64,000 nt of DNA from NCBI GenBank assembly GCA_902522865.1, contig CABYXC010000002.1, forward strand, positions 62,001 through 126,000. The letters run 5' to 3'. A model generated the notes under the pieces. It saw nothing but the letters and a program-made list of their open reading frames with translations, was not told where the DNA came from and searched no databases. The stretch is from an uncultured Alphaproteobacteria bacterium. GTDB taxonomy: Bacteria; Pseudomonadota; Alphaproteobacteria; HIMB59; GCA-002718135. A program made the translations under genes and the position numbers. Below, piece by piece: positions 44,256 to 59,484 of this stretch (position 1 is the first letter of the stretch; every line of letters begins with the position of its first letter).

Positions 44256-45002
44256 ATGTCAGATAACTTAGTACTGGAAGCTAAATCAGTTTCAAAATTT
44301 TTTGGTACTATTACAGCTCTTCAAAATGTAGATCTTCATTTAAATAAAGGTGAGGTTCTTGGTGTCGTCGGCGATAACGGTGCTGGAAAGTCTACATTAA
44401 TGAAAGTTTTATCAGGATTATATAAGCCAAGTGAAGGATCTCTTTTTTTTGATAAAGAAAAAGTAACTTTAAATAGTCCCAGAGACTCTCAAAATTTGGG
44501 TTTAGAAATGGTCTATCAAGATTTAGCACTAGCTGGGAATCTCCCTATTGGTGATAATATTTTTTTAGGAAGAGAGCCAACAAGAAAAGTCGGCCCTTTC
44601 AATTTTTTAGATCATAAAAAAAGAAAAAAGTTAACTGAAGAGCATCTTGCAAAACTAAAAATTAACGTAAAGAGTGCTGATCAAAAGGTTGAAGAATTAT
44701 CAGGTGGACAAAGACAAGCTGTTGCAATTGCTAGAGCTACAGCTTTTAATGCAAAAATTGTATTGATGGATGAACCAACAGCTGCACTTGCTGTTAAGGA
44801 AGTGGGGAAAGTTTTAGATTTAATTTTAAATCTTAAAAAGTTAGGTGTTAGTGTAATAGTAATTAGCCATCGAATGGATGATATTTTTACTGTTTGTGAT
44901 CGAGTCATGGCACTTTTTCAAGGAACAAACTTTGCTGAGTCAGAATTAAAAAATACTTCAAGAGACGAAGTGATTGGATGGATCATGGGAAAAAAAGATT
45001 AA
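44256..45002 (+). CDS. CUT2-type sugar ABC importer ATPase 1 (single domain, FrcA-like)
   Basis: An ABC ATPase of 248 residues: Walker A GDNGAGKST at 39-47, Q-loop MVYQD near 86, signature LSGGQRQ at 148-154, Walker B VLMDEP, and the His switch VISHRMDD near 205. Most CUT2 (ribose-type) importers use a double-length ATPase; this one is single and would work as a homodimer, as in the FrcBCA fructose importer of rhizobia. Its stop overlaps the permease start as TAATG. Confidence 0.93.
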   Translation: MSDNLVLEAKSVSKFFGTITALQNVDLHLNKGEVLGVVGDNGAGKSTLMKVLSGLYKPSEGSLFFDKEKVTLNSPRDSQNLGLEMVYQDLALAGNLPIGDNIFLGREPTRKVGPFNFLDHKKRKKLTEEHLAKLKINVKSADQKVEELSGGQRQAVAIARATAFNAKIVLMDEPTAALAVKEVGKVLDLILNLKKLGVSVIVISHRMDDIFTVCDRVMALFQGTNFAESELKNTSRDEVIGWIMGKKD

Positions 45003-46009
45003 TGGATAAGAATCAAGAATCTTTATTTGTCAGACTTATTCCTTTTTTTGAAAGATATGGGATCTTATTACTTATCCTAATAATGATTGCTGTCCTGCAT
45101 TTGTTGCAACCTGATGTTTTTTTATCATGGAGAAATGTAACAAATATTTTTAAACAAGTTTCTTGGCAGTCTATGTTAGCACTTGGTGTCTTTATGGTCA
45201 TTGTAACTGCAGGTATAGATCTATCAGTCGGTTCAATTATCATGTTATCATTAATGGGACTCGCTATTGCTTCGAAGGCAGGAATGCCTTGGTATGTTGT
45301 CATGTTAGTTGCACCAGCAATTGGATTTTTGTGTGGTATGTTTAATGGTATTGGAATTACCTTACTTCGAATGCCTCATCCATTCATAATGACACTAGGG
45401 ACGCTTTATATATTTAGAGGTATTGGTAATCTTATATCCGGAGGTGTTCCAATAACAGGTTTTGCTGAACAGATTAGAGTTATAGGAAATGGTAAAATTA
45501 AACTAGATGTAATTTTTGGAGAAGGCGCTAGAGAGTATATTCCCACAAGTTTAATTTTAATGATTGTAATATTTTTTATCTTTTGGATATTTTTAAATCA
45601 TACACGAATAGGTAAATGGATTTATGCGATTGGAGGTAACCCAGGAGCAGCAAGGGCAGCAGGTATTAACGTTGATCGAATTTTGATCGTAGTTTACACG
45701 CTTTGCGGTTTCTTGGCGGGCATCGGAGGTTTAATTTTAGCTGGAAGAACGAATTCTGCTTATCCAAATGCTGGTTTACAATCTGAGCTAGATGCGATTG
45801 CAGCAGTAATTATAGGTGGAGCAAGCTTCTTTGGGGGAAGAGGAACCGTTTTAGGTGTATTTGCTGGAGTCATGATTATGGGTATACTCCGAAATGGTCT
45901 AAATCTAATGAATGTTAGTGTTTTCTGGCAACAAGTTCTTATTGGGTCAATTATTATTTTGGCTGTTTATATCGATGTTCTAAGAAGACAACTTGCAACC
46001 AGAACATAA
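45002..46009 (+). CDS. CUT2-type sugar ABC importer permease 1 (RbsC family)
   Basis: A 335-residue inner-membrane permease with eight to ten hydrophobic helices. ALGVFMVIVTAGIDLSVGSI near 55-74 is the BPD_transp_2 family hallmark, and IYAIGGNPGAARAAGINVDR near 206-225 is the conserved cytoplasmic loop that meets the ATPase. The start overlaps the ATPase stop; an upstream in-frame ATG at 44978 would only add residues inside the ATPase gene. It pairs with the ATPase before it and the binding protein after it. Confidence 0.93.
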   Translation: MDKNQESLFVRLIPFFERYGILLLILIMIAVLHLLQPDVFLSWRNVTNIFKQVSWQSMLALGVFMVIVTAGIDLSVGSIIMLSLMGLAIASKAGMPWYVVMLVAPAIGFLCGMFNGIGITLLRMPHPFIMTLGTLYIFRGIGNLISGGVPITGFAEQIRVIGNGKIKLDVIFGEGAREYIPTSLILMIVIFFIFWIFLNHTRIGKWIYAIGGNPGAARAAGINVDRILIVVYTLCGFLAGIGGLILAGRTNSAYPNAGLQSELDAIAAVIIGGASFFGGRGTVLGVFAGVMIMGILRNGLNLMNVSVFWQQVLIGSIIILAVYIDVLRRQLATRT

Positions 46010-46089
46010 TATCAAAAAATAATCACTTTCTGACAAACAGTCACTTGATTAGAATTTAATTTTTGATTAATGGTTAAAAAAAAATTTTT

Positions 46090-46095
46090 AGGAGG
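46090..46095 (+). promoter_or_regulatory. Strong ribosome binding site of binding protein 1
   Basis: AGGAGG is four bases before ATG 46100. It supports this start over an in-frame ATG at 46070 and fits the high demand for a periplasmic binding protein. Confidence 0.8.
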
Positions 46096-46099
46096 AAAA

Positions 46100-47017
46100 A
46101 TGAAATTTTTTATTTCTATAATTACTACTTCCGTATTGTTTTTTTCAGGTAGCCTTTTAGCAGGCTCACATGCTAAAACAATTATGCTAAGTACTAAAGG
46201 ACCAGGTGCTGGAAACCCTTTTTGGGCTTCAGTTGAAGCTGGTGCTAAAGATGCTGCTGAAGAATTAGGTGTAAACCTTATTATCCTTTCACCACCACAA
46301 GAGAGTGATGTTATGGCTCAGGTAGCGCAAATTGAAGACCAAATTGCTAAAGGTGTAGACGGTATAGCGATTGCACCAACTGACCCTAACGCAGTTGCAC
46401 CAATTCTTGATGATGCAATGGCTTCAGGTGTTCCAGTTGTATACATTGATACTAATGGAATTAATGAAGGTGTAACTTTCATTGGTACAAACAATATCAA
46501 TGGTGCTGCTTTAGCTGCTCAATACATTTGTGATAATGTTCCAAGTGGTTCTGATGTTGCAATCCTTCAAGGAATGATCACGCAAACTACTGGTCAACAC
46601 AGAGCTGAAGGATCACACAAAGGTCTTGAAGCATGTGGCATGAACATTGTTGCTGAACTTCCAGCTAACTGGGATACTGCACAAGGTATGTCAGTAACGG
46701 AAGATATCATCACTGGTAACCCAAATCTAAAAGCAATCTTTGCTTCTAACGATAATATGGGTCTAGGTGCTATCCAAGCATTAAAAAATGCTGATATGCT
46801 AGATGATGTTGTCGTTGTTGGATTTGATGCTAACCCTGATGCTGCTGCAAGTGTAATGGCTGGTGAAATGTCAGCAACTATTGCTCAATTCTCATACAAC
46901 ATGGGATACATGGGTGTAGAAAATGCACTTAAATTAGCTAATGGTGAGAGCATTCCAGATAACATTGATACTGGAACTGTATTAGTTACTAAAGAAAACG
47001 CTGCAGACTTTATGTAG
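46100..47017 (+). CDS. Periplasmic sugar-binding protein 1 of CUT2 importer
   Basis: A ribose/xylose/arabinose-type binding protein of 305 residues. The signal peptide is about residues 1-25 (hydrophobic core ISIITTSVLFFSG, likely cleavage near GSHA). The mature start KTIMLSTKGPGAGNPFWASV and the stretch GVDGIAIAPTDPNAVAPILD are family-typical, as is FASNDNMGLGAIQALK. It captures the ligand for the permease-ATPase pair upstream. The ligand is unknown; the iolD neighbour suggests a cyclitol or its derivative. Codons look optimised for high expression compared with its neighbours. Confidence 0.93.
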   Translation: MKFFISIITTSVLFFSGSLLAGSHAKTIMLSTKGPGAGNPFWASVEAGAKDAAEELGVNLIILSPPQESDVMAQVAQIEDQIAKGVDGIAIAPTDPNAVAPILDDAMASGVPVVYIDTNGINEGVTFIGTNNINGAALAAQYICDNVPSGSDVAILQGMITQTTGQHRAEGSHKGLEACGMNIVAELPANWDTAQGMSVTEDIITGNPNLKAIFASNDNMGLGAIQALKNADMLDDVVVVGFDANPDAAASVMAGEMSATIAQFSYNMGYMGVENALKLANGESIPDNIDTGTVLVTKENAADFM

Positions 47018-47037
47018 GTCTAAGCAAAATTATTTTT

Positions 47038-47070
47038 AAAAGGCCGTAATTTTTTACGGCCTTTTTTTTT
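47038..47070 (+). terminator. Rho-independent terminator after binding protein 1
   Basis: GGCCGTAA (47042-47049) pairs with TTACGGCC (47054-47061) around a four-T loop, flanked by AAAA and followed by nine or more T. It ends the first importer operon. Confidence 0.92.
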
Positions 47071-47109
47071 ACTATTCCATTTTTTACAATTGATTTATAG
47101 AAACAATTT

Positions 47110-48261
47110 ATGAAAAATATTGGTCTAATTGGTTGTGGTAATATAGCAGAGACCTATTTCCGGGCTCAGGAATATTTTAACAATATAAATTTTGTTGCTT
47201 GTGCTGATATTAATTTAGATGCCGCTAAAAAAACAGCTGATGAATATAATATTATTCCTTTATCAGTTGATGAAATACTTAATGACAAGAATGTAGACAT
47301 CATTCTTAATCTCACAATTCCCCAAGCGCATTATGAAATATCTAAAAGAGCTCTTGAGGCAAACAAACATGTTTATTGTGAAAAACCAATGAGTGTTAAG
47401 TTTGATGAAGCAAAAGAATTATTAAATTTAGCAAAAAAAAATAGTCTCTATATTGGGAATGCACCCGATACTTTTTTAGGAGGAGGAGGTCAACTTACAC
47501 GAAATTTAATTGACAACAATGATATTGGACAAGTTCTAACTGGTAATTTTATATTTGCTTTTCCTGGCGTTCAAGATTTTCATCCAAGTCCTGAGTCTTG
47601 GTTTCAAGAAGGAGGAGGACCTGTAATAGACATGGGTCCATATTTTTTTACCACCCTTGTTAATCTTCTAGGTCCGGTAAAAAATATAAGAGGAAGAGGA
47701 GCTAAATTTTCTGATAAAAGAGAATACAAAGCTGGTCCAAAAAAAGGAGAAACTTTTAATGTTGAAATTCCAACTTCTTATATGTTTAATATTGAGTTTC
47801 AAAATAAAGCTATCATTCAAGGTTTCATTTCATTTGATGTTTTAAATCATAAACGTAATCATATGGAGCTTTATGGAACGAAAGGTTCAATAGTAGTTCC
47901 TGATCCAAATATGTTTGGTGGTCCAGTTTCCATATCTGGTGAGTTTGGATCTGAATGGAAAGATATTAGCGTAGAAGATAAACCCCTTGGAAAAACAAAT
48001 ATTGTTAACCATAGTGGAAGAAGTAATGAGGCGCCTGAACAAGCGAACTACAGGGGTATTGGGTTAGCCGAAATGATTGACGCTATTGAAAATAATAGAA
48101 TGCATAGGTGTAATGGAGAACTTGCTCTTCACGTTTTAGATGTAATCGAGTGTGCTATGATCTCTTCAATTTATAAAGTGGAAGTAGAGCTCCGTTCTTC
48201 GTGTGTGAAGCCTGAACCAATGCATGATGATTTCATAAGGCAAATCCTAAAAAAAATATAA
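47110..48261 (+). CDS. Gfo/Idh/MocA oxidoreductase 1
   Basis: A 383-residue NAD(P)-dependent oxidoreductase acting on sugars, cyclitols or amino sugars. The Rossmann motif GLIGCGNIAETYF is at the N-terminus, the catalytic Lys92 in CEKPMSVKF at 90-98, and GGGPVIDMGPYFFT near 176-189. NRMHRCNGELALHVLDVIE lies near the C-terminus. It is closely similar, almost colinear, to the oxidoreductase at 56.3 kb, so the two are paralogues. It lies between the two importer sets and follows a terminator, so it should have its own promoter. Confidence 0.9.
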   Translation: MKNIGLIGCGNIAETYFRAQEYFNNINFVACADINLDAAKKTADEYNIIPLSVDEILNDKNVDIILNLTIPQAHYEISKRALEANKHVYCEKPMSVKFDEAKELLNLAKKNSLYIGNAPDTFLGGGGQLTRNLIDNNDIGQVLTGNFIFAFPGVQDFHPSPESWFQEGGGPVIDMGPYFFTTLVNLLGPVKNIRGRGAKFSDKREYKAGPKKGETFNVEIPTSYMFNIEFQNKAIIQGFISFDVLNHKRNHMELYGTKGSIVVPDPNMFGGPVSISGEFGSEWKDISVEDKPLGKTNIVNHSGRSNEAPEQANYRGIGLAEMIDAIENNRMHRCNGELALHVLDVIECAMISSIYKVEVELRSSCVKPEPMHDDFIRQILKKI

Positions 48262-48362
48262 ATTTTGCTTCGCAATTGAATTAGTGCGATAATTTTACAG
48301 CCTAATTCCCAATATTTCTCCTTGTTTTACATACCCATTCTTGCTAGGAAAATATTATTTAT

Positions 48363-48368
48363 AGGAGG
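48363..48368 (+). promoter_or_regulatory. Strong ribosome binding site of binding protein 2
   Basis: AGGAGG lies five bases before ATG 48374. The upstream 110-base gap after the Gfo/Idh/MocA gene must hold the promoter; I see no convincing -35/-10 pair there. Confidence 0.75.
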
Positions 48369-48373
48369 AATGC

Positions 48374-49339
48374 ATGAAAAAAATTGCTTCAATTATTCTT
48401 GCCTCTGTAGCGCTTTTTGCTACTTCAGCGAAGGCAGAATACAAATTTAACTTCGTAATGCACAGTGATACGAACAATGCTTTCTGGGCAGCTGTTCACA
48501 AAGGTTTTAAAGATGCTTGTGCACAAATTAATGCTGATTGCCAAATGTTAACTCTTTCAGGTGATGGAGACCAACAAGAGCAATTACAAAACTTAGAGTC
48601 TTCAATAGCTCAAGGTGTTGATGGTATCGTAACTACAATTACTAACCCAACTATCTTTGATGCTGCAGTTGATGAAGCATTAGCTGCTGGTATTCCAGTA
48701 ATTACAGCTAATACTGATGATCCAGAAGGTGCTGCTGGTAGTAACAGACTAGCATATGTTGGACAAGACTTAGAAGCAGCTGGTTATGAATTAACAGCTA
48801 ACCTTTCTGAAATGTTTCCTGATGGAGATATTCACGTTCTAATCGGTGTTGCAGACATGAACCAATCATGGGCATACACTAGAGGAAACGGTATTGCACG
48901 TTTCATGGAAGATTACAAAGCAGCTAACCCTGATAGAAAAGTAACTTATGAGAAAATCGAGTCAGGTCTTGATCTTTCAACTGTTGGAAACAGAGTGGCA
49001 GCTTATGTTCAAGCTAACCCAAATACAACTGCATATCTTGATGTAGGTTTCTGGGAAGCTGGTGCAGCTGCAGCAGTAAGAAACTTAGGTTACGGACCTG
49101 GTGAAATACTTCTTGCTGGTTTTGACTTAGTTGACGTAGTTTTTGAAGAAATGGACAAAGGTTATGTTCAACTAACAGTTGACCAACAACCATACTACCA
49201 AGGTTACATGTCAGTTCACCAATTATACTTAATGAACAAGTATGGTTTAAGTGCACTAGATATCAACACTGGTAAAGCTATGATTGGTCCTGATGATGTT
49301 GAAACAATCAGATCATTCAAAGGAATGTCAGTTAGATAA
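48374..49339 (+). CDS. Periplasmic sugar-binding protein 2 of CUT2 importer
   Basis: A second ribose-type binding protein, 321 residues, with a clean signal peptide (1-21, cleavage at AKA-EYKF). FVMHSDTNNAFWAAVHKGF opens the mature protein, followed by QGVDGIVTTITNPTIFDAA and AYVQANPNTTAYLDVGFWEAG. It differs a good deal from binding protein 1, so the ligands probably differ. It comes first in its operon, with a terminator right after it and the permease and ATPase beyond, the reverse of the first importer's order. Confidence 0.93.
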   Translation: MKKIASIILASVALFATSAKAEYKFNFVMHSDTNNAFWAAVHKGFKDACAQINADCQMLTLSGDGDQQEQLQNLESSIAQGVDGIVTTITNPTIFDAAVDEALAAGIPVITANTDDPEGAAGSNRLAYVGQDLEAAGYELTANLSEMFPDGDIHVLIGVADMNQSWAYTRGNGIARFMEDYKAANPDRKVTYEKIESGLDLSTVGNRVAAYVQANPNTTAYLDVGFWEAGAAAAVRNLGYGPGEILLAGFDLVDVVFEEMDKGYVQLTVDQQPYYQGYMSVHQLYLMNKYGLSALDINTGKAMIGPDDVETIRSFKGMSVR

Positions 49340-49348
49340 ATATCTTAA

Positions 49349-49377
49349 CCAGGCTCTTTAAATAGAGCCTGGATTTT
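49349..49377 (+). terminator. Intra-operon terminator/attenuator after binding protein 2
   Basis: CCAGGCTCT (49349-49357) and AGAGCCTGG (49364-49372) form a perfect nine-pair stem with a TTAAAT loop, followed by ATTTTT. It would let the binding protein be made in excess over the membrane parts. Confidence 0.88.
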
Positions 49378-49391
49378 TATTAAAAAAAAAT

Positions 49392-50372
49392 ATGAGTAAA
49401 AATTTTAGTCTTAGAAGTTTATTAGTAAGACCAGAAGTAGCAACCTTCTTAATGTTTCTAGCAATAATGATTGGATTTTATATTGCTAATGAGAGATTTT
49501 TAGATGCAAGAAATATAAGAATAGTTATGGGTATTACACCCGAATATATTATTGTTGCAATTGGGATTGCAATATTAATGATCTCAGGTGAATTTGATTT
49601 ATCTGTAGGCTCTGTTTTTGCATTAGTCCCGATGACTATTGTACAAATGGTGCATCAAGGGATACCACCTTGGTTTGCTATTTTTCTAGGATTAACGATT
49701 GGTATTATAGTTGGTTTTGTTAATGGATTTATTACCTTAAGATTTGGAATTCCTTCTTTTATTGCAACTCTTGGAATGCTCTATATTGCTAGAAGTCTTA
49801 CAACTGTAGCTACTGCAGGATTTCCACCACCATTTCCTCATATTTTACCAAATGAGTTATTTGTTTATCAATTCGAATTATTTAGAGCTTCATTGTACTG
49901 GGCTCTTTTAGTTGCCGTAGTTTTAGGTGTTATGCTCCACAGAAGTAATGTAGGTAACTGGATCTATGCAACTGGCGGAGATCAAAACGCAGCATCCTCA
50001 ATGGGTATAAAGACTGGAAACGTTAAAATGTTTTGTTTTATTTTATGTGGTTTCTTAGCTGGCTTTGCTGGAATGATTCAAACATTTAGATTGGAAGCAC
50101 CATTACCCTCCCAAGGATACTTATTGGAACTAGAGTCAATTGCTGCAGCAGTTATTGGTGGCGTCAGTTTATTTGGAGGTATTGGAACAGTTTTTGGTGC
50201 CGTTATTGGTGCAATACTAATCAGATTTTTAGAAAGTGGAATCATTATGGCTAGAATAGATGCGGAATGGTTTAGAGCAGGTTTAGGTTCTTTAATTATT
50301 ATAGCCGTAGTGTTTAATACTTATATAAGTAGAAGAGCAACACGAATTGGTCAAAACAAGGCAGAGGATTAA
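49392..50372 (+). CDS. CUT2-type sugar ABC importer permease 2
   Basis: A 326-residue RbsC-family permease. IVAIGIAILMISGEFDLSVGSV near 54-75 is the hallmark, and IYATGGDQNAASSMGIKTGN near 193-212 is the ATPase-contact loop. About eight to ten helices are visible. It starts 20 bases after the attenuator hairpin and ends two bases before the ATPase start. The Asp in GEFDLSVGS replaces nothing essential that I can see. Confidence 0.93.
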   Translation: MSKNFSLRSLLVRPEVATFLMFLAIMIGFYIANERFLDARNIRIVMGITPEYIIVAIGIAILMISGEFDLSVGSVFALVPMTIVQMVHQGIPPWFAIFLGLTIGIIVGFVNGFITLRFGIPSFIATLGMLYIARSLTTVATAGFPPPFPHILPNELFVYQFELFRASLYWALLVAVVLGVMLHRSNVGNWIYATGGDQNAASSMGIKTGNVKMFCFILCGFLAGFAGMIQTFRLEAPLPSQGYLLELESIAAAVIGGVSLFGGIGTVFGAVIGAILIRFLESGIIMARIDAEWFRAGLGSLIIIAVVFNTYISRRATRIGQNKAED

Positions 50373-50374
50373 AG

Positions 50375-51112
50375 ATGGAAGATATAATAGTTTGCGAGGC
50401 TCTAAACAAATACTATTCTGGAGTCCATGCTTTAAAAAATTTAAGTCTAAAGATAAAAAAAGATTCTGTTGTTGGTCTTATTGGCGATAATGGTGCTGGT
50501 AAATCAACATTAATTAAAATCTTATCTGGTGCACATCAACCTGATTCAGGTCATATATATTTTGAAGGTAATAAGGTTAAATTTAAATCTACAAAGGAAG
50601 CAATGAACTTAGGGATTGAAACAATCTATCAGTATTCAGCTCTGATACCAGAAATGTCTATTGCAAGAAATATTTTTATTGGACGTGAACAAACTCAATA
50701 TAATGTTGGCAATTTTGGTTTAATGAAAACTAAAACCATGCAGGACGATGCTATGAAAGCATTAACAGATGTAGAACTGCATCTTCGATCTCCAGATACA
50801 CCAGTTAACCAATTATCTGGAGGTGAAAGACAAGGTGTTGTGATTGCAAGAGCAATGTATTTTAAATCAAAAGTTTTAATATTAGATGAACCAACAAATC
50901 ACCTATCAGTGAAAGAAACAAATAAAGTACTAAGGTTTGTAGAAGGATTAAAAAGCCAAGGTGTGACATCAATATTTATTACTCACAACTTGAGTCATGT
51001 TTATCCAATTGCTGATCATTTATGTGTAATGGCTAGAGGAGAAAAAATTGCTGATATGGACAAAAAAGATACAACAATAGATCATCTCACTGATTTATTA
51101 GTGAATGGATAA
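50375..51112 (+). CDS. CUT2-type sugar ABC importer ATPase 2 (single domain)
   Basis: An ABC ATPase of 245 residues with Walker A GDNGAGKST at 38-46, signature LSGGERQ at 147-153, Walker B LILDEP at 168-173, and the His switch FITHNLSH near 206. The Q-loop reads TIYQYSAL, an aromatic after Gln where Asp is usual. Like ATPase 1 it is single-domain. It is followed at 14 bases by a PhyH oxygenase, so importer and oxygenase are probably co-transcribed. Confidence 0.93.
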   Translation: MEDIIVCEALNKYYSGVHALKNLSLKIKKDSVVGLIGDNGAGKSTLIKILSGAHQPDSGHIYFEGNKVKFKSTKEAMNLGIETIYQYSALIPEMSIARNIFIGREQTQYNVGNFGLMKTKTMQDDAMKALTDVELHLRSPDTPVNQLSGGERQGVVIARAMYFKSKVLILDEPTNHLSVKETNKVLRFVEGLKSQGVTSIFITHNLSHVYPIADHLCVMARGEKIADMDKKDTTIDHLTDLLVNG

Positions 51113-51116
51113 TTTT

Positions 51117-51122
51117 GGGAGG
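51117..51122 (+). promoter_or_regulatory. Ribosome binding site deciding the PhyH 1 start
   Basis: GGGAGG lies four bases before ATG 51127 and argues against the in-frame TTG at 51115. Confidence 0.7.
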
Positions 51123-51126
51123 AATT

Positions 51127-52062
51127 ATGATTAGTGATGCGCAAATAAAACAATATAACGAAGAAGGTTATACGATCGTTGAAAATGTTTTTAGTATGGA
51201 TGAGTTAAATCCAATATTAAATGAATTTGAAGAAATTGTTGATGATTTTGCAGAAAAAGCTTTTCAAGCTGGAAAAATTACAGACAAACATGATGATAAA
51301 GATGTTTTTAAAAGACTAGCTGCTCTCGAAAGAGATTTTAAAGGTTCTTCAGTTTTAATTCATCATAGAGGCGAATTAAAACCAGCGCTCGCTAAACTAT
51401 GGGGATCAAAAAAACTCTTAGATATGGTTGAAAATTGGGTTGGCAAAGATATCTCTGGTCATCCAGTTTGGAATATTAGATCTAAAACACCTCAGACAGC
51501 TAGGATGACAGTTCCATGGCACCAAGATTCTGCTTATTTAAAAGATGGAGCAGAAAAAACTACTCAGCCTGCTGCGTGGATTCCATTTCTAGATGTAAAT
51601 AAACATAATGGATGCATGCAAGTTGTTCCCGGTGGACATAGACCTGAAAGAGTTTTAAATCATAAATTAGAAAAGAAAGATGGTTCAGTAAAAGATTCTT
51701 GGTATTTATTTATTGAAGACAAAGATATTCCTGAGGAGAAAGTTGTTACTTGTGAAATGAAAGCTGGTTCAGTTTTGTTTTTACATCAATTAGTTCCTCA
51801 TCGATCACTTGAAAATTTATCTGATGATGTAAGATGGAGTGTTGATCTAAGATTTCAAAATCCAAAAGATGAAGCTGGTTTTCATACTGGTTTGGTTGAT
51901 CCAATCATAATGAGAAAATCAGAAGACCCAAGCTATACAGCTGATTGGGATTCTTGGTTTAAAGGTTATGAAGAAGAACATACTAAATTTAGAGGGACTT
52001 CAAAAAAAGACCAATTTGACTCCACAGTTGATGGGTCATGGTTAGAGCGTTGGGATAATTAA
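51127..52062 (+). CDS. Phytanoyl-CoA dioxygenase (PhyH) family oxygenase 1
   Basis: An Fe(II)/2-oxoglutarate oxygenase of 311 residues. The N-terminus QIKQYNEEGYTIVENVFS is typical; the iron ligands are His132 and Asp134 (PWHQDSAYL) and the distal His in VPHRSLENLSDD near 225, with Arg in VDLRFQ for 2-oxoglutarate. Small-molecule members hydroxylate or demethylate diverse substrates, so the name does not imply phytanoyl-CoA. It is in the transcript of the second importer, which suggests that it acts on the imported compound. Confidence 0.88.
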   Translation: MISDAQIKQYNEEGYTIVENVFSMDELNPILNEFEEIVDDFAEKAFQAGKITDKHDDKDVFKRLAALERDFKGSSVLIHHRGELKPALAKLWGSKKLLDMVENWVGKDISGHPVWNIRSKTPQTARMTVPWHQDSAYLKDGAEKTTQPAAWIPFLDVNKHNGCMQVVPGGHRPERVLNHKLEKKDGSVKDSWYLFIEDKDIPEEKVVTCEMKAGSVLFLHQLVPHRSLENLSDDVRWSVDLRFQNPKDEAGFHTGLVDPIIMRKSEDPSYTADWDSWFKGYEEEHTKFRGTSKKDQFDSTVDGSWLERWDN

Positions 52063-52076
52063 TTTAATTATCAAGC

Positions 52077-53060
52077 ATGGAAGTTGATCTCGATGATTGG
52101 TACAGACCAGAAGTCGACAGAAAAAAATTAAAAGCCTTAAGTAAAAGAAGAGATCTACCTGGAGTAATCCATTTCTTTTTTTATTTTTTATCTTTATTTA
52201 TTTCAGGATATTTAGCATACATTACTTTAGGCACATGGTGGACATATCTATTCTTTTTTATTTATGGTACAATTTACGCGTTCAGTGTAGCAAACTGGCA
52301 TGAAACTGTTCATCGAACTGCATTCAAGACTCGTTGGATAAATGAATTTTTTTATCACATCAGTTCTTTCATGTGTGACTTTGAAGGTTTTAGATGGCGT
52401 TGGAGTCATACTTTTCATCATTCAAAAACATTGCAAACAGAAGATGATTATGATCACGAAATTCAAGTATCAAGACCGATAGAATTATTTGCATTCTTTT
52501 TGAATTTTATACCATTTACAGATTTATTATTCCCACATAAATTAATTAAATTTGAAGTTTTAAAACATGCTTTTGGAAAATTCACTCCAGTTATTGATAT
52601 AACTGCACCTAAAGAAGAAAAGAAAAAAATTCTTTGGAACTCTAGATTATATGTCTTTATTTGGGTATCAGTAATTGTATATTCTTTTTACATAGTTTCT
52701 TTCTTGCCAATAATTTATATAATTTTACCTACTTATATTGGAAAGCCAATATGGTTTGCGGTAAATGTGACCCAACACCTAGCTGCTAAAGTTGATACAA
52801 AAGATCACCGCTTAAGTACTTACTCAGTGAGAATAAATCCAATTTTAAGTTTTTTATATTGGCACATGGAATATCATTTAGAACATCATATGTTTCCAAT
52901 GGTACCCTCATATAATTTAAAAAAATTACGAAAAGAAATTGATAAAGAACTACCACAACCGTTTACGAGTCTTTTTGATTTTTATAAAAAAGTTTTACCA
53001 GCTGTAATAGCTTTAGCTACTGATCAAAATAAATACTACAAAGTAAAATTAAATAATTAA
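52077..53060 (+). CDS. Membrane fatty-acid-desaturase-family di-iron enzyme
   Basis: A 327-residue membrane enzyme with the three histidine boxes of the desaturase/hydroxylase superfamily: His75-x3-His79 (NWHETVHR), His111-x2-His114-His115 (SHTFHHSKT) and HLEHHMFP near 264-271. About four membrane helices lie at 30-70 and 190-230. A desaturase or hydroxylase reaction is likely. Its place directly after PhyH 1 and the importer is odd for lipid synthesis and hints at a hydroxylase of the island's pathway or a lipid-linked step. Confidence 0.85.
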   Translation: MEVDLDDWYRPEVDRKKLKALSKRRDLPGVIHFFFYFLSLFISGYLAYITLGTWWTYLFFFIYGTIYAFSVANWHETVHRTAFKTRWINEFFYHISSFMCDFEGFRWRWSHTFHHSKTLQTEDDYDHEIQVSRPIELFAFFLNFIPFTDLLFPHKLIKFEVLKHAFGKFTPVIDITAPKEEKKKILWNSRLYVFIWVSVIVYSFYIVSFLPIIYIILPTYIGKPIWFAVNVTQHLAAKVDTKDHRLSTYSVRINPILSFLYWHMEYHLEHHMFPMVPSYNLKKLRKEIDKELPQPFTSLFDFYKKVLPAVIALATDQNKYYKVKLNN

Positions 53061-53061
53061 T

Positions 53062-53487
53062 TTACCAAGAACCGGTATTCTCCATTGATTTCCATGGTTC
53101 TTGTTCGGGTAAAGATTCACCTTCTTGTAAAATTTCTAATGATATTCCATCTGGTGAACGTACAAAAGCCATGTGTCCATCACGTGGCGGTCTATTTATT
53201 GTAACACCATTCTTCATTAATCTATCACAGACTTCATATATATTTTTTACACTGTAGGCTAGATGCCCAAAATTTCTTCCACCAGTATATTCTTCTGGAT
53301 CCCAATTATATGTTAATTCAAGTAATCCTGTTTTATCATCACTATTTTCAGCAGCTAAAAAAATTAATGTAAATCGACCCTTTTCATTTTCTACTCGTCT
53401 AACTTCTTTTAAGCCAAGTTTATTGCAATAGAAGTCTAATGATTCTTCTATATTATTAACTCTAACCATTGTGTGTAAATATTTCAT
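53062..53487 (-). CDS. gloA: Lactoylglutathione lyase (glyoxalase I)
   Basis: GloA turns the methylglyoxal-glutathione hemithioacetal into S-lactoylglutathione. In the 141-residue VOC protein the four metal ligands sit at the expected places: His5 (KYLHTMVRV), Glu near 57 (LLELTYNW), His near 75 (FGHLAYSV) and Glu near 123 (SLEIL). It is the only minus-strand gene in the island, convergent with the desaturase and divergent from the sulfatase. It would complement gloB at 8.7 kb and might deal with methylglyoxal from sugar breakdown. Confidence 0.9.
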   Translation of the reverse strand: MKYLHTMVRVNNIEESLDFYCNKLGLKEVRRVENEKGRFTLIFLAAENSDDKTGLLELTYNWDPEEYTGGRNFGHLAYSVKNIYEVCDRLMKNGVTINRPPRDGHMAFVRSPDGISLEILQEGESLPEQEPWKSMENTGSW

Positions 53488-53549: not shown

Positions 53550-55061
53550 ATGAAAACAGTTTTTTTACTTTTTGATTCTTTAAATAGAAGAATGTTAAAT
53601 TCATATGGTGGAAAGTATTTAGAAACACCAAATTTTAATCGCTTGGCTGAAAAAACTGTTCAATTTAATAATCATTATATCGGAAGTATGCCTTGTATGC
53701 CCGCAAGAAGAGATATGCATTCTGGAAGATTAAGTTTTCTCCATAGATCTTGGGGACCACTAGAACCATTTGATAATTCATTTCCCGAACTCTTAAGATT
53801 AAACAATACGTATACTCATTTAGTCACAGATCATTATCACTATTTTGAAGATGGAGGCGCAACATATCACAATCGTTTTAACTCTTATGATTTTATCAGA
53901 GGACAAGAAAGAGATCCATGGAAAGCCATGGTTCAACCACCTTTAGAAAAATTTAGAGAAAAATATCATAAATCACAATTGAATTTAGATGATAGAGAAC
54001 ATGTGTATTATTTTTATCCAATTAATAGTGAATTTATAAAAGAAGAAAAAGATTTTCCTTCAGTGAAGTGCTTTTCTTCTGGTTTAGATTTTTTGCAAAC
54101 AAATAAAGATGCGGATAATTGGTTTTTACAATTAGAAACTTTTGATCCACATGAACCTTTTTTTGCACCTGAACGTTTTAGAGAAACCATTAAGACAAAT
54201 TACCGTGGACCGCGCTTAGATTGGCCTCAATATGAAAGAGTTACTGAAACTGATGAAGAAATAGCAGAATTGAAAGCAAATTATATTGCTCTTATAGCTT
54301 TATGTGATCATTTATTAGGCAAGGTCTTAGATCATTTTGATGAAAATAATATGTGGGAAGATACATCCTTAATTTTAACTACTGATCATGGTTTTATGTT
54401 AGGAGAACATGATTGGTGGGCAAAAAATAGAATGCCCCTTTATAATGAAATAGCAAATATACCTTTATTTTTTTATCACCCAGGTTTTAAACAACATCAA
54501 GGAGAGCAAAGGAATCTTGTTACTCAGAACATAGATTTAATGCCTACATTTCTTGATATGCATAATCACTCAATTCCTTCAGAAGTGAAAGGAAAATCAT
54601 TATTAACTTATTTGGATAAAGATGCAGAAAATAAGTTTGCTGCTCTTTATGGCTATTGGGGCGGTGGTATTAATATTACAGATGGAAAATATAGTTATTT
54701 TCACTACCCAGAAAATTTTAGTCAACAAAATCCAGAGAGATATCAATATACATTAATGCCAACGCATATGAGACAGTTTTTTTCAAATGAAGAATTGCAA
54801 ACAGCTACTTTACATAAACCTTTTGATTTTACAAAAGATATACCTTTGCTTAAGATTAATAGGATCGAAAGAAAAACTGATGGTGGGTATAAAGGTTTTG
54901 AGGATACAAAAAGTGCACTTTACAATTTACAAAATGATCCAGGTCAGTTGACACCTATAGCAGATGAAAAAAAATCAAATGAATATCAAAAATTGATGAT
55001 TAATATTATCAATGAGTATGACCCTCCAAAAGAATTAATAAATAATTATTTTGAAAATTAA
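53550..55061 (+). CDS. Formylglycine-dependent sulfatase, probably cytoplasmic
   Basis: A type I sulfatase of 503 residues. The formylglycine signature Cys49-x-Pro-x-Arg53 lies in PCMPARRDMHSGR, metal Asp residues are in LLFDSLNRR (Asp9) and TTDHGFMLGEHDWW (near 277-290), and DPHEPFF lies near 200. There is no signal peptide: the protein begins directly with MKTVFLLFDS. Most sulfatases on polysaccharides are exported, so this one probably desulfates a small imported compound. The activating enzyme (FGE or anSME) is not in the window. It starts the second half of the island. Confidence 0.9.
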   Translation: MKTVFLLFDSLNRRMLNSYGGKYLETPNFNRLAEKTVQFNNHYIGSMPCMPARRDMHSGRLSFLHRSWGPLEPFDNSFPELLRLNNTYTHLVTDHYHYFEDGGATYHNRFNSYDFIRGQERDPWKAMVQPPLEKFREKYHKSQLNLDDREHVYYFYPINSEFIKEEKDFPSVKCFSSGLDFLQTNKDADNWFLQLETFDPHEPFFAPERFRETIKTNYRGPRLDWPQYERVTETDEEIAELKANYIALIALCDHLLGKVLDHFDENNMWEDTSLILTTDHGFMLGEHDWWAKNRMPLYNEIANIPLFFYHPGFKQHQGEQRNLVTQNIDLMPTFLDMHNHSIPSEVKGKSLLTYLDKDAENKFAALYGYWGGGINITDGKYSYFHYPENFSQQNPERYQYTLMPTHMRQFFSNEELQTATLHKPFDFTKDIPLLKINRIERKTDGGYKGFEDTKSALYNLQNDPGQLTPIADEKKSNEYQKLMINIINEYDPPKELINNYFEN

Positions 55062-55064
55062 TAC

Positions 55065-55343
55065 ATGACAAAGAGACAAAAAGTTTTAGTTCTTTATTTA
55101 AAGTTTCCAAGTTTAGAAGCAGAAGTCATTTCTTGGGCGACTTTTGATGGTACAGGAAAAAAACTTCATATGACTGGAGATAGTGATGAGCCACCTTATC
55201 CTACTGGTCTTGATGCTTTATTAGATGGTTGGAGATTATTTCAAGCTAGTCAAGCTATTCCAGAGTATCCTGGTCAAGAATTTAGAACTTCATACTTAAA
55301 ACATGAATTTTTTTTTGAAAAAATAGAAGAAGGAGATTTTTAA
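55065..55343 (+). CDS. Small protein of unknown function between sulfatase and PhyH 2
   Basis: A 92-residue soluble protein I do not recognise. It starts VLVLYLKFPSLEAEVISW, contains DSDEPPYPTGLDALLDGWRLFQ in its middle and ends with an acidic FFFEKIEEGDF. There are no Cys residues, so it is not a metal ribbon. It lies three bases after the sulfatase stop and one base before PhyH 2, and its 3' end carries the AGAAGGAG ribosome site for PhyH 2. The tight packing argues that it is real and functionally tied to these enzymes. Confidence 0.78.
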   Translation: MTKRQKVLVLYLKFPSLEAEVISWATFDGTGKKLHMTGDSDEPPYPTGLDALLDGWRLFQASQAIPEYPGQEFRTSYLKHEFFFEKIEEGDF

Positions 55344-55344
55344 A

Positions 55345-56265
55345 ATGCCAAAATTATTATCAACGGAGCAAATGGCAGAATTTGCAAATAGTGGCTGTCT
55401 TTTTTTTGAAGGTTTAATTGATGAAGATATCAATAGAGAGTTTTTAAATGACATAGGACATACCAATATTGATGAAGTTGATAATATTCAGCAGTACTTT
55501 CAAAACATTAAATCATCTAGTAGTATCCCTAGAATACCAGCTGGCACTCCATTAAAGGATGCTTACCCTTTAAACTCTCCTTTGGAAAAAATATTTAAAA
55601 ATGAAATTGTCTCAGGAGCAATTAATAGTTTAGTTGGTTCAAAAACGGTAGTTGATCATCAATTTCTTCACTTAACATTTCCTTCTAAATATTATGACAG
55701 AGCAAATCAAAGACAAATGTCGCAAGTTAATCATCAAGATAGCACAATTGATCCAAGGACAACTTTCGATATTCAATTGTTTTACTTTCCAACTGCTGTT
55801 ACTAAAGATATGGGTGGTACAAGATATCATCCTGGTACTCATTTAAGAATAGTGAATGAAATGGGTATTGCAAAATATCAAAATATAAAAGGACAAAAAA
55901 ATATTATTTGTAAGGCGGGGACAATAGGAATTTTTCATAGTGGTCTGTGGCATGGTGCAGGAGTTAATTTTTCTGATGATATTAGATATATGTTTAAAGT
56001 TAGATTACAGCCTAAAGAAAAACAGGAATTATTATGGGATATTGATAAAAAATATAGACCATTACCCAATAGAGCTTTGTATTGGACAGATGAAAATCAA
56101 GAAAAAACAATTAATGATATATTGATGCAATCACATCCTTGGCAAGAAGCTGATACCAATCGTTTAGATAAAATAAATACTATTAAGTTTTGGAGACAGT
56201 TAACTGGTAATAAAAATTTGGATATTGATTACTGGCTTACAAGGATTGAAAATGAATTATATTAA
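55345..56265 (+). CDS. Phytanoyl-CoA dioxygenase (PhyH) family oxygenase 2
   Basis: A 306-residue Fe(II)/2-oxoglutarate oxygenase. The iron ligands are His130 and Asp132 (QVNHQDST) and the distal His in SGLWHGAGVN near 203, with Arg in FKVRLQ after it. GGTRYHPGTHLRI lies between them. It is only weakly similar to PhyH 1, so it likely has a different substrate. It sits between the 92-residue unknown gene and the second Gfo/Idh/MocA gene, in one transcript starting at the sulfatase. Confidence 0.87.
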   Translation: MPKLLSTEQMAEFANSGCLFFEGLIDEDINREFLNDIGHTNIDEVDNIQQYFQNIKSSSSIPRIPAGTPLKDAYPLNSPLEKIFKNEIVSGAINSLVGSKTVVDHQFLHLTFPSKYYDRANQRQMSQVNHQDSTIDPRTTFDIQLFYFPTAVTKDMGGTRYHPGTHLRIVNEMGIAKYQNIKGQKNIICKAGTIGIFHSGLWHGAGVNFSDDIRYMFKVRLQPKEKQELLWDIDKKYRPLPNRALYWTDENQEKTINDILMQSHPWQEADTNRLDKINTIKFWRQLTGNKNLDIDYWLTRIENELY

Positions 56266-56277
56266 AGGAATAATTTT

Positions 56278-57423
56278 ATGAAGATAGGAATTATTGGTTG
56301 TGGAAATATTGCTGATATTTATTTTAGTAATTCCCAGAAGTATTTTAACAATTTTCAAATAGTTGCATGTGCTGATATTAAAAATGAAGCTGCAAAAAAA
56401 TATTCAGAAAAATATGGAGTAGAACAATTATCAGTAGATCAGATATTATCTAATAAAGAAATTGAGTTAATTATAAACTTAACAATACCTGATGTTCATT
56501 TTCAAGTTTCAAAATCAATTCTTGAAGCTGGAAAACATTCTTATTCAGAAAAACCACTCTCAATAAAGTTTGAACATGGTGAAGAGTTAGTAAATTTAGC
56601 TAATTCAAAAGGTTTATGTGTGGGTTGTGCGCCAGATACATTTCTTGGCGCTGGCATACAGGAAGCAAAAAAAATTATTGATCAAGATGAAATAGGTAAC
56701 ATAAATCTCGGCAGTATTTCTATGGGTGTAGCTGGACATGAAATTTGGCATCCAAATCCAGATTTTTATTACAAATATGGCGGCGGTCCAATTCTTGATA
56801 TGGGCCCATATTATTTTACAGCACTAGTAAATTTACTAGGTCCAGCCAAAAATGTTTTTACGCAATCAAGAACAGTTTATCAGAAAAGAATTATTGGTAG
56901 TGGTGATAGACAAGGGCAAGAAATAGAAGTTGAAATTCCAACAACCTTAGTTTCACAAATAGAATTTCAGAATGGAGCATTAATTGATTCATTTTTTTCT
57001 TTTGATGTTTGGAAGCATAGTAAGAATCACATTGAGTTATATGGCGATAAAGGTTCAATAAATATTCCTGATCCAAATATGTTTGGCGGTAATATTCTTC
57101 TATGTAAATCAAAAAATGGAAATTGGGAAAATATAGATACCAAAAATAACAATTTAGGTAAAATAAACATTAATAATAAATCTGAAAAAGTAAATGAGTC
57201 AGCAGGCATTGCTAACTATAGAGGTATTGGTGTGAGCGAAACAGTTGATGCAATAAAAAATAATCGTTTAAATAGATGTAGCGGAGAATTAAGTCTTCAC
57301 GTTTTAGATATACTAGATAGTATTATTTCATCATCAAAAGAAAATAAAAAAATAGAACTTAGAAGTACTGTTAAAAATTTAAATTACTTTTCTGAAGACG
57401 AGATTAGTAATTTATTAAAGTGA
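56278..57423 (+). CDS. Gfo/Idh/MocA oxidoreductase 2
   Basis: A 381-residue paralogue of the oxidoreductase at 47.1 kb. The Rossmann motif GIIGCGNIADIYF is at 4-16, catalytic Lys92 in SEKPLSIKF, and GGGPILDMGPYYFT near 175. The first hundred residues align with the paralogue with only single-residue gaps, and both share the same C-terminal GELSLHVLD-type stretch. Having both near separate importers suggests two related substrates or two steps of one route. Confidence 0.9.
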   Translation: MKIGIIGCGNIADIYFSNSQKYFNNFQIVACADIKNEAAKKYSEKYGVEQLSVDQILSNKEIELIINLTIPDVHFQVSKSILEAGKHSYSEKPLSIKFEHGEELVNLANSKGLCVGCAPDTFLGAGIQEAKKIIDQDEIGNINLGSISMGVAGHEIWHPNPDFYYKYGGGPILDMGPYYFTALVNLLGPAKNVFTQSRTVYQKRIIGSGDRQGQEIEVEIPTTLVSQIEFQNGALIDSFFSFDVWKHSKNHIELYGDKGSINIPDPNMFGGNILLCKSKNGNWENIDTKNNNLGKININNKSEKVNESAGIANYRGIGVSETVDAIKNNRLNRCSGELSLHVLDILDSIISSSKENKKIELRSTVKNLNYFSEDEISNLLK

Positions 57424-57433
57424 AAGGAATAAA

Positions 57434-58147
57434 ATGAAAAAAGCTTTAATAGTTTATGGAGGTTGGCCAGGACATGAGCCAGAAAAATGTACTGAAATAA
57501 TAAAGGGTATGCTTGAGCCTGAAGGATATGAGGTAAGAGCAGAATATCAAACTTCTGCATTTGCGGAAGATTATGTTCACGAAATGGATTTGCTTATACC
57601 TATAGTGACTATGGCTTTTCATTTTGATCCGAGAGGAGAAATAAAAAAAACTGCTGTTAATAATGTTATTAAAGCTGTTCACAATGGTTGTGGACTTGCC
57701 GGTCATCACGGAGGAATGTGTGATGCATTTAGACAATCAATTGATTGGCAGTTCTTAACTGGTGGTCAATGGGTAAGTCATCCAAATGGTATTCATGATT
57801 ACAAAGTAAATATAACAAAAAAAGATGACCCAATCATGGAAGGTATTGAAGATTTTAATTATCATTCAGAGCAATATTACATGCATGTGGATCCATTAAA
57901 TGAAGTTTTAGCAACGACGACATTTAAAGGTAACGAAGTTTGGAAGCTTGAACAAGAACCTGGTTCATCAAGTGGTGACGCATATACCACAGAATGGTTA
58001 AAGGGTGTAGAAATGCCAGTTGCCTGGAAAAGACGAATTGGGAAAGGAAAAATTTTTTATATTTCTCTTGGTCATTTTGCTCATGAATTAAACCATCCAA
58101 AAATGAATAAAATTTATAAACGTGGTTTACTTTGGGCATCAAGATAG
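57434..58147 (+). CDS. ThuA-like domain protein
   Basis: A 237-residue ThuA-family protein with a glutamine-amidotransferase-like fold. VYGGWPGHEPEKC at 8-20, GLAGHHGGMCDAF near 93-105 and the end GKIFYISLGHFAHELNHP are family hallmarks. ThuA proteins recur in trehalose, trehalulose and other disaccharide gene clusters next to Gfo/Idh/MocA oxidoreductases and sugar-phosphate isomerase-type proteins, as here, but their activity is poorly known. It follows oxidoreductase 2 by ten bases. Confidence 0.9.
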   Translation: MKKALIVYGGWPGHEPEKCTEIIKGMLEPEGYEVRAEYQTSAFAEDYVHEMDLLIPIVTMAFHFDPRGEIKKTAVNNVIKAVHNGCGLAGHHGGMCDAFRQSIDWQFLTGGQWVSHPNGIHDYKVNITKKDDPIMEGIEDFNYHSEQYYMHVDPLNEVLATTTFKGNEVWKLEQEPGSSSGDAYTTEWLKGVEMPVAWKRRIGKGKIFYISLGHFAHELNHPKMNKIYKRGLLWASR

Positions 58148-58170: not shown

Positions 58171-59484
58171 ATGACAAAATACTTTAGTAAAATACCAGAG
58201 ATTAAATTTGAAGGTGAAGAAAGTACAAACCCATTCGCTTTTAAGTTTTATGATGAATCTAAAAAAGTTTTAGGCAAGTCTATGAAAGAGCATTTAAGGT
58301 TTGCTACTTGCTATTGGCATACATTTACTTGGCCAGGTCTAGATCCGTTTGGCGGTCAAACATTTGACAGACCTTGGATGCAAGCAGGTGATGAAATGAA
58401 AATGGCTGAAATGAAACTTGATGCTGCATTTGATTTTTTCACTAAAATAAAAACACCTTTTTTCTGCTTTCACGATAGAGATATTTCTCCTGAAGGTTCA
58501 AATTATGCTGAAACACAAAAAAATTTTTTTCATATTATAGATTTAATGGAACAAAAAATTAATGACTCAGGAATGAAATTATTGTGGGGAACAGCAAATG
58601 CTTTTTCTCATAAAAGATATATGAGTGGTGCATCTACCAATCCAAACCCAGAAGTTTTTGCATATAAAGCTGCACAAGTAAAAGATTGTATGGATGCAAC
58701 GATGAGATTGGGTGGTCAAAACTATGTTCTTTGGGGTGGAAGAGAAGGATACGAAACTATTCTTAATACTGACATGACCAAGGAAACAGCTAATCTTCAA
58801 AGATTTCTTGAATTAGTCGTTAATTATAAACACAAGATAGGATTTAAAGGTCAAATTTTATTGGAACCAAAACCTCATGAACCAACTAAACATCAATATG
58901 ACTTTGACTCTGCAACTTGCTTAGCGTTTTTACGAAAGGCAGGTTTAGAAAATGAGATTAAATTAAATGTTGAAGTTAATCATGCAACTTTATCTGGTCA
59001 TAATTTTGAACATGAAATTGCTTACGCTACTTCAAACAGCGCCTTAGGAAGTATAGACATTAATAGAGGTGATACCTTGATAGGTTGGGATACAGATCAA
59101 TTCCCAAATAATCCTGCCGACTTAATTATGTCATTTTATTTTATTTTTAAGAATGGCGGCTTAGGCCAAGGAGGCATGAACTTTGATGCAAAAATAAGAA
59201 GACAATCTATCGATGCTGAAGATTTATTCCATGCTCATATTGGAGGCATGGATGTTTGTGCAAAAACACTTATTGCTGTTGAAAAAATGATGAATGATAA
59301 TGTTATTCCTAAGTTTATTGAAGATAGATATGAAGACTGGAATAAAAGTTTAGGGCAGTTTATTCATAATAAAGATACTGGATTAGATGATATAAATAAA
59401 AAAGTAATCGACGAAAATATTGAACCAGAACCTCGTTCAGGAAGACAAGAATACCTGGAAAATATCTTAAATAAATATTTGTAG
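58171..59484 (+). CDS. xylA: Xylose isomerase
   Basis: A TIM-barrel aldose isomerase of 437 residues. The catalytic pair His101 and Asp104 (CFHDRD) has the same numbering as in E. coli XylA. Metal ligands are seen in LLEPKPHEP (Glu), NVEVNHATLSGH (Glu, His), SIDINRGD (Asp), GWDTDQFP (two Asp) and MNFDAKIRRQS (Asp). All key residues are present, so true D-xylose isomerase or a close epimer activity is likely. No xylulokinase is in the window. It is the last gene of the island transcript. Confidence 0.93.
   Translation: MTKYFSKIPEIKFEGEESTNPFAFKFYDESKKVLGKSMKEHLRFATCYWHTFTWPGLDPFGGQTFDRPWMQAGDEMKMAEMKLDAAFDFFTKIKTPFFCFHDRDISPEGSNYAETQKNFFHIIDLMEQKINDSGMKLLWGTANAFSHKRYMSGASTNPNPEVFAYKAAQVKDCMDATMRLGGQNYVLWGGREGYETILNTDMTKETANLQRFLELVVNYKHKIGFKGQILLEPKPHEPTKHQYDFDSATCLAFLRKAGLENEIKLNVEVNHATLSGHNFEHEIAYATSNSALGSIDINRGDTLIGWDTDQFPNNPADLIMSFYFIFKNGGLGQGGMNFDAKIRRQSIDAEDLFHAHIGGMDVCAKTLIAVEKMMNDNVIPKFIEDRYEDWNKSLGQFIHNKDTGLDDINKKVIDENIEPEPRSGRQEYLENILNKYL

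Follow-up and report, generated by a model that had tools for sequence, protein, structure and literature searches.

The PhyH superfamily of oxygenases, which includes human PHYH, SptF, KanJ and EvdMO1, is characterised by a common domain with an HxD...H motif and an arginine 11 residues after the last histidine. We know of no described member that is linked to a small protein. Other iron oxygenases do work with a second protein: TlxI/TlxJ and TlxA/TlxC are heterodimeric non-heme iron oxygenases in which the catalytic member needs a non-catalytic second protein, and in the MNIO (DUF692) enzymes MbnBC and TglHI the iron oxygenase has a dedicated helper protein (PMC12141560). Among 2-oxoglutarate oxygenases, a limited literature search turned up few that have a helper protein; in none of these is the helper small and non-homologous. 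In the window, as we call the whole 64,000-nucleotide stretch of DNA analysed here, a predicted oxygenase termed PhyH2 shares the domain, motif and arginine of the superfamily and differs from its described members in being linked to a protein of 92 residues. The module that we propose for these two proteins would resemble the Tlx enzymes in combining a catalytic oxygenase with a non-catalytic protein, and the MNIO enzymes in combining an iron oxygenase with a dedicated helper. It differs from the former in that the Tlx helper is an inactive oxygenase homolog, whereas the 92-residue protein bears no resemblance to PhyH (a Pfam search gave no PhyH match in it, which sets the pair apart from a heterodimer of the TlxIJ type). 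It differs from the MNIO enzymes in family and in their use of peptide substrates, no precursor peptide having been noticed at the window locus.

The gene run and its sulfatase

All genes of the run lie on the forward strand. A sulfatase gene (53550-55061, 503 residues) is followed after 3 nt by the open reading frame of the small protein (55065-55343) and, 1 nt further on, by the gene for PhyH2 (55345-56265, 306 residues), which is the spacing originally reported. The run extends beyond the PhyH2 end at 56265, continuing with gaps of 10-23 nt through a Gfo/Idh/MocA oxidoreductase (56278-57423, PF01408), a ThuA-family protein (57434-58147; PF06283, 145 bits) and the xylose isomerase XylA (58171-59484; NCBIfam TIGR02630, 653 bits against a cut-off of 533) to 59484. 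To judge from the sequence alone, the stretch from the sulfatase to XylA is likely one transcript; its upstream border is a glyoxalase-like gene on the opposite strand (53062-53487). A Gfo/Idh/MocA gene is also found downstream of the small gene and PhyH2 in relatives. The small gene has no obvious Shine-Dalgarno sequence in the window, and the PhyH2 gene is preceded by a strong one, AAGGAG at 55330-55335, which lies within the 3' end of the small gene and is retained in nearly all marine loci. Further upstream the window carries a second PhyH gene of another subtype (PhyH1), followed by a membrane protein of the fatty-acid-desaturase type (51115-53060). Two sugar importers of the RbsABC type also lie upstream of the cluster (44256-51112), and their ATPases, with 248 and 245 residues, are half the usual length for this importer class.

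The sulfatase scores 108 bits with PF00884 against a cut-off of 25 and carries the CxPxR signature as C49-M-P-A-R (nt 53694-53708), the motif named in the original prediction, which places it among the type I (formylglycine-type) sulfatases. Its ATG at 53550 is the first start following an in-frame stop, and the protein opens immediately with its first core strand, MKTVFLLFDSLN. As the first possible start and the core strand leave no room for a signal peptide, the window sulfatase is predicted to be cytoplasmic and to carry no export signal, again as had been proposed. Those N-termini of other sulfatase types in the genus that were read begin alike. Choline sulfatase and the phosphonate monoester hydrolase PehA share with the window sulfatase the CxPxR signature, PF00884 and the absence of a signal peptide; however, it scores far under both NCBIfam equivalog cut-offs (PehA, 133 of 900 bits; choline sulfatase, 102 of 433 bits).

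The small protein and its probable PhyH partner

A genome scan found homologs of the small protein at at least 387 loci, of which the best 80 were kept, 43 of them from closely related marine genomes. The hosts include marine alphaproteobacteria, Caulobacter, Phenylobacterium, gammaproteobacteria, Streptomyces, Kribbella, Glycomyces, Saccharothrix and others. Because the protein is about 60% identical across phyla and has 31 invariant positions in 42 sequences, the 92-residue frame can be taken as a real gene; the invariant residues include D, E, K, R and W. Its family had not been recognisable at the outset, and database searches bore this out: the window protein matched no Pfam, NCBIfam or PHROG family and gave no significant match among PDB sequences, and a few homologs gave weak, scattered Pfam matches with a best E-value of 8.6e-4. 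A suspected resemblance to DUF4177 was not upheld by the Pfam search, and a search for viral or phage homologs found none. AlphaFold2 modelled the protein with a mean pLDDT of 82 and a pTM of 0.73, placing strands at residues 2-12, 20-27, 57-61 and 81-90 and a short helix at 48-53. Neither Foldseek (best E 0.71) nor VIA-align (best Z 4.4, to KCTD1, rmsd 3.4 over 65 residues) returned a convincing structural relative of this model. From these comparisons the 92-residue protein emerges as a member of a protein family that has apparently not been described before; the orphan reading frame has gained a defined family and, in a PhyH oxygenase, a clear partner.

PhyH2 belongs to the PhyH superfamily by its score of 43.1 bits with PF05721 against a gathering cut-off of 22. 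The predicted iron ligands H130 and D132 (55732-55740) and H203 (55951-55953), together with the predicted 2-oxoglutarate ligand R214 (nt 55984-55986), which follows H203 by 11 residues, are invariant in 43 sequences of the subtype and were aligned to human PHYH (2a1x). Since the iron triad and the 2-oxoglutarate arginine are kept, PhyH2 is predicted to be active. No NCBIfam model exists for the subtype. Intact Streptomyces members score above 400 bits with its profile, and at an E-value cut of 1e-20 the lower scores come from degraded copies only; by its sequence, PhyH2 can be regarded as a discrete subtype of the superfamily. Foldseek matches for the PhyH part include the glycoside-acting KanJ and EvdMO1, as weak matches with low TM scores.

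The original prediction had taken the small protein for a partner or product-handling subunit on account of its spacing, and had proposed a check of whether it always lies beside the sulfatase or PhyH. For PhyH the answer was affirmative. The small gene adjoins a gene of the PhyH2 subtype in 80/80 kept loci (the best 80 of at least 387), and likewise in L040-L042 and L044; in L110 the two are about 0.1 kb apart. The order is small gene then PhyH in proteobacteria and the reverse in actinomycetes, and despite this swap the spacing is mostly an overlap of 4 or 8 nt or a gap of 0-1 nt. In the reverse direction, a search of 199 Streptomyces genomes with the PhyH profile (E<=1e-20) gave 33 matches, of which 31 are practically complete in length. 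Each of the 33 is followed downstream by the small gene at a distance of 11-208 bp, measured between aligned ends. Five Streptomyces small genes stand without a PhyH gene. Four of them are fragments; the fifth, a second copy in genome G677, is intact. This intact copy (L131, 3223-3624) sits between arabinofuranosidase-like and GH31-like reading frames. Among the loci fetched for context the sole exception is L043 (genome G006), which has no PhyH2 and only a truncated small gene, a case of joint decay of the two genes. Furthermore, the distance matrix of the small protein correlates with that of PhyH at r=0.91 over 42 pairs, compared with a maximum of 0.31 in 2000 permutations, a figure to which shared ancestry contributes.

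As it is strictly linked to PhyH2, very conserved, non-homologous to it and apparently made by coupled translation, the small protein is most readily understood as a subunit or an obligate helper. We propose that it is a dedicated partner of PhyH2, most likely a non-catalytic subunit, that coupled translation would produce the two together, and that they would form a two-protein Fe(II)/2-oxoglutarate oxygenase module. That the two are functional partners is highly probable; that they form a physical complex is favoured with considerably more reserve. The other explanation to be weighed is that the small protein is a separate enzyme or carrier of the pathway, for example one that handles an unstable product of PhyH2, and makes no complex with it. 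Strict linkage would fit two consecutive steps equally well, the invariant D, E, K, R and W resemble an active site, and mean identity between actinomycetes and non-marine proteobacteria is higher for the small protein (65%) than for PhyH (50%). An AlphaFold2 model of the L099 proteins as a fused chain (stop codon TAA read through as Gly; unpaired rows, shallow alignment) is compatible with such a separate role: it reached a pTM of 0.69, contained no supported interface between the small protein and PhyH2, and gave the small part a pLDDT below that of the protein alone. Among the loci that were examined, none carried the two genes as a natural fusion. However, the protein has only 92 residues and belongs to no recognised catalytic family, and genes that mostly overlap, in both orders, are more subunit-like than expected of successive enzymes. 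We therefore consider a separate enzyme or carrier rather unlikely and prefer a subunit of PhyH2.

Sugar operons of a marine genus

The window genome belongs to a large group of related single-cell genomes. The genome AG-891-K05 (locus L056, at the same position as G110) is a genomospecies reference genome of family GCA002718135 in the order HIMB59 (PMC10734472), and through this assignment the marine genus to which the window belongs can be placed in the HIMB59/AEGEAN-169 order. We infer that the genus can probably be equated with AEGEAN-169 clade II, Ca. Indicimonas, for which the published description gives two to eight sulfatases per genome and a GH29 fucose operon in some members (PMC11366302).

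Of 101 genomes from the genus, 56 contain the sulfatase subtype of the window, 49 contain PhyH2 and 40 contain both. Of the 51 PhyH2 loci, 25 have the sulfatase directly upstream, 9 have it at a distance of up to 15 kb and 17 lack it in their vicinity, some of these 17 being limited by contig ends. The arrangement sulfatase, small gene and PhyH2 is also present in L099, which lies outside the genus set. As regards the sulfatase, then, the predicted partnership did not stand, since the small gene accompanies it only in part of the marine genus and in L099. The short spacing does speak for a small protein that serves the sulfatase as partner or product-handling subunit: the gap is 3 nt in the window and 0-3 nt in marine relatives of the same layout, and the small gene, having no obvious Shine-Dalgarno sequence, may be translated by coupling to the sulfatase. 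However, no such sulfatase is near in 17/51 PhyH2 loci, 16 genomes of the genus contain the sulfatase but no PhyH2, and almost all non-marine homologs have no nearby match to the window sulfatase. Gene context thus largely refutes a sulfatase partner, a role we regard as very improbable; the sulfatase is a pathway neighbour and not a constant part of the module of PhyH2 and small protein.

What takes the place of the sulfatase points to sugars. In L069 its position is occupied by a CUT1 importer (SBP_bac_1 with two BPD permeases) and a GHL6 hydrolase, and an importer of the same type replaces it in L087. CUT1 importers lie near the pair in L069, L087, L044 and L099, and in L087 and L044 they are accompanied by several further sulfatases. 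In L044 (3910-12593), L046, L050 and others, four to five different cytoplasmic sulfatases, together with a CUT1 importer, surround the pair. Since relatives carry four to five sulfatases at this place and the window only one, the region is a variable island.

In two genomes of the genus (G007 and G031; loci L041 and L042) the pair lies within a fucose operon. Domain searches in L041 identified a GH29 alpha-L-fucosidase (PF01120, 4.7e-95), an amidohydrolase whose best match is L-fucono-1,5-lactonase (219 bits, under the cut-off of 400), an MR/MLE-type dehydratase, a short-chain dehydrogenase, an aldo/keto reductase, a PfkB kinase, a KDPG-type aldolase and a CUT1 binding protein; by reading, L042 has the same fucose-operon genes. 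Membrane proteins of the FA_hydroxylase type are found near the pair in both. These copies of the pair thus sit in a GH29 operon of the kind reported for Ca. Indicimonas, for which the consulted passages of the description mention no PhyH (PMC11366302). The window's copy is in another sugar-related run, where the pair precedes Gfo/Idh, ThuA and XylA. Outside the marine genus the neighbours are mixed, the commonest being AraC-type regulators (11/105 neighbours), and on a Streptomyces plasmid the pair lies beside Gfo/Idh, a TIM-barrel protein and inositol catabolism genes. Because of this mixture a sugar substrate is not general; as a reading of gene context, it is firm for the marine genus only.

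On this basis we hypothesise that the module, placed in sugar-scavenging operons of the marine genus, would act inside the cell by oxidising an imported carbohydrate or one of its substituents. In the window, the cytoplasmic sulfatase would take a sulfate ester off the same imported sugar, before or after the oxygenase acts, and Gfo/Idh, ThuA and XylA would process the product. A carbohydrate substrate is moderately well favoured for the module, and the reading as a whole, with the small protein as partner of PhyH2 in a two-protein oxygenase acting on an imported carbohydrate, seems to us the probable one, the complex and the substrate being its conjectural parts. The reaction may be the removal of an O-methyl group, a guess suggested by methylated algal sugars. 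The fucose and xylose contexts would point to an unrecognised oxidative step through which an abundant clade of the ocean uses decorated sugars. It is conceivable, though we hold it only tentatively, that the pair represents a new two-component class of Fe(II)/2-oxoglutarate oxygenases in at least two phyla, in which a PhyH-type enzyme needs a small non-homologous subunit and carries out an unrecognised step of sugar catabolism such as O-demethylation.

Sulfatase maturation in the genus

PF00884 proteins occur in 83/101 genomes of the genus, with up to 8 per genome. No anSME scored above the cut-off in these genomes (TIGR03942, best 75 bits vs 349), and PF03781 matches occur in 17/101. PF03781 was not found in the window genome (73% complete), and it is absent even at E<=10 from G110, G133, G101 and G054 (90-96% complete). 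Four of the five genomes that are at least 90% complete are thus without a PF03781 match, among them G110 with six sulfatases. By these profile searches, most sulfatase-bearing genomes of the genus appear to be without a recognisable FGE or anSME.

An oxygenase encoded beside sulfatases in genomes of this kind could be an alternative maturase, PhyH2 and the small protein oxidising the active-site cysteine in place of FGE. However, 16 genomes have the window-type sulfatase without PhyH2, others have further sulfatases without it, and the module is found where no sulfatases are nearby. As sulfatases occur without PhyH2 and the small protein, we reject this role as scarcely credible.

The sulfatases of the genus may be active unmodified, another activity may make formylglycine, or a maturase may have been missed by the models. 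Choline sulfatase works unmodified, slowly. A literature search on alternative formylglycine formation yielded little; in E. coli, formylglycine is made without FGE by an activity still to be identified (PMC6189696). Cytoplasmic CxPxR sulfatases without a recognisable maturase bear on this same question of activation without FGE (PMC6189696).

Mutual exclusion of the PF03781 gene and PhyH2, suggested by the first 60 genomes, disappeared with more genomes, as G106 and G114 carry both. The PF03781 protein that was compared (229 residues; L031 and L032) is closest to SUMF2, and in the C-terminal part that was read it has no cysteine at what we take to be the positions of the two FGE active-site cysteines. 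In L032 (124-3586; genome G060) a further sulfatase, the SUMF2-like protein and a 501-residue protein without a Pfam match form a tight cluster, and a sulfatase of the window type lies near it, at G060:C9:25432-26934.
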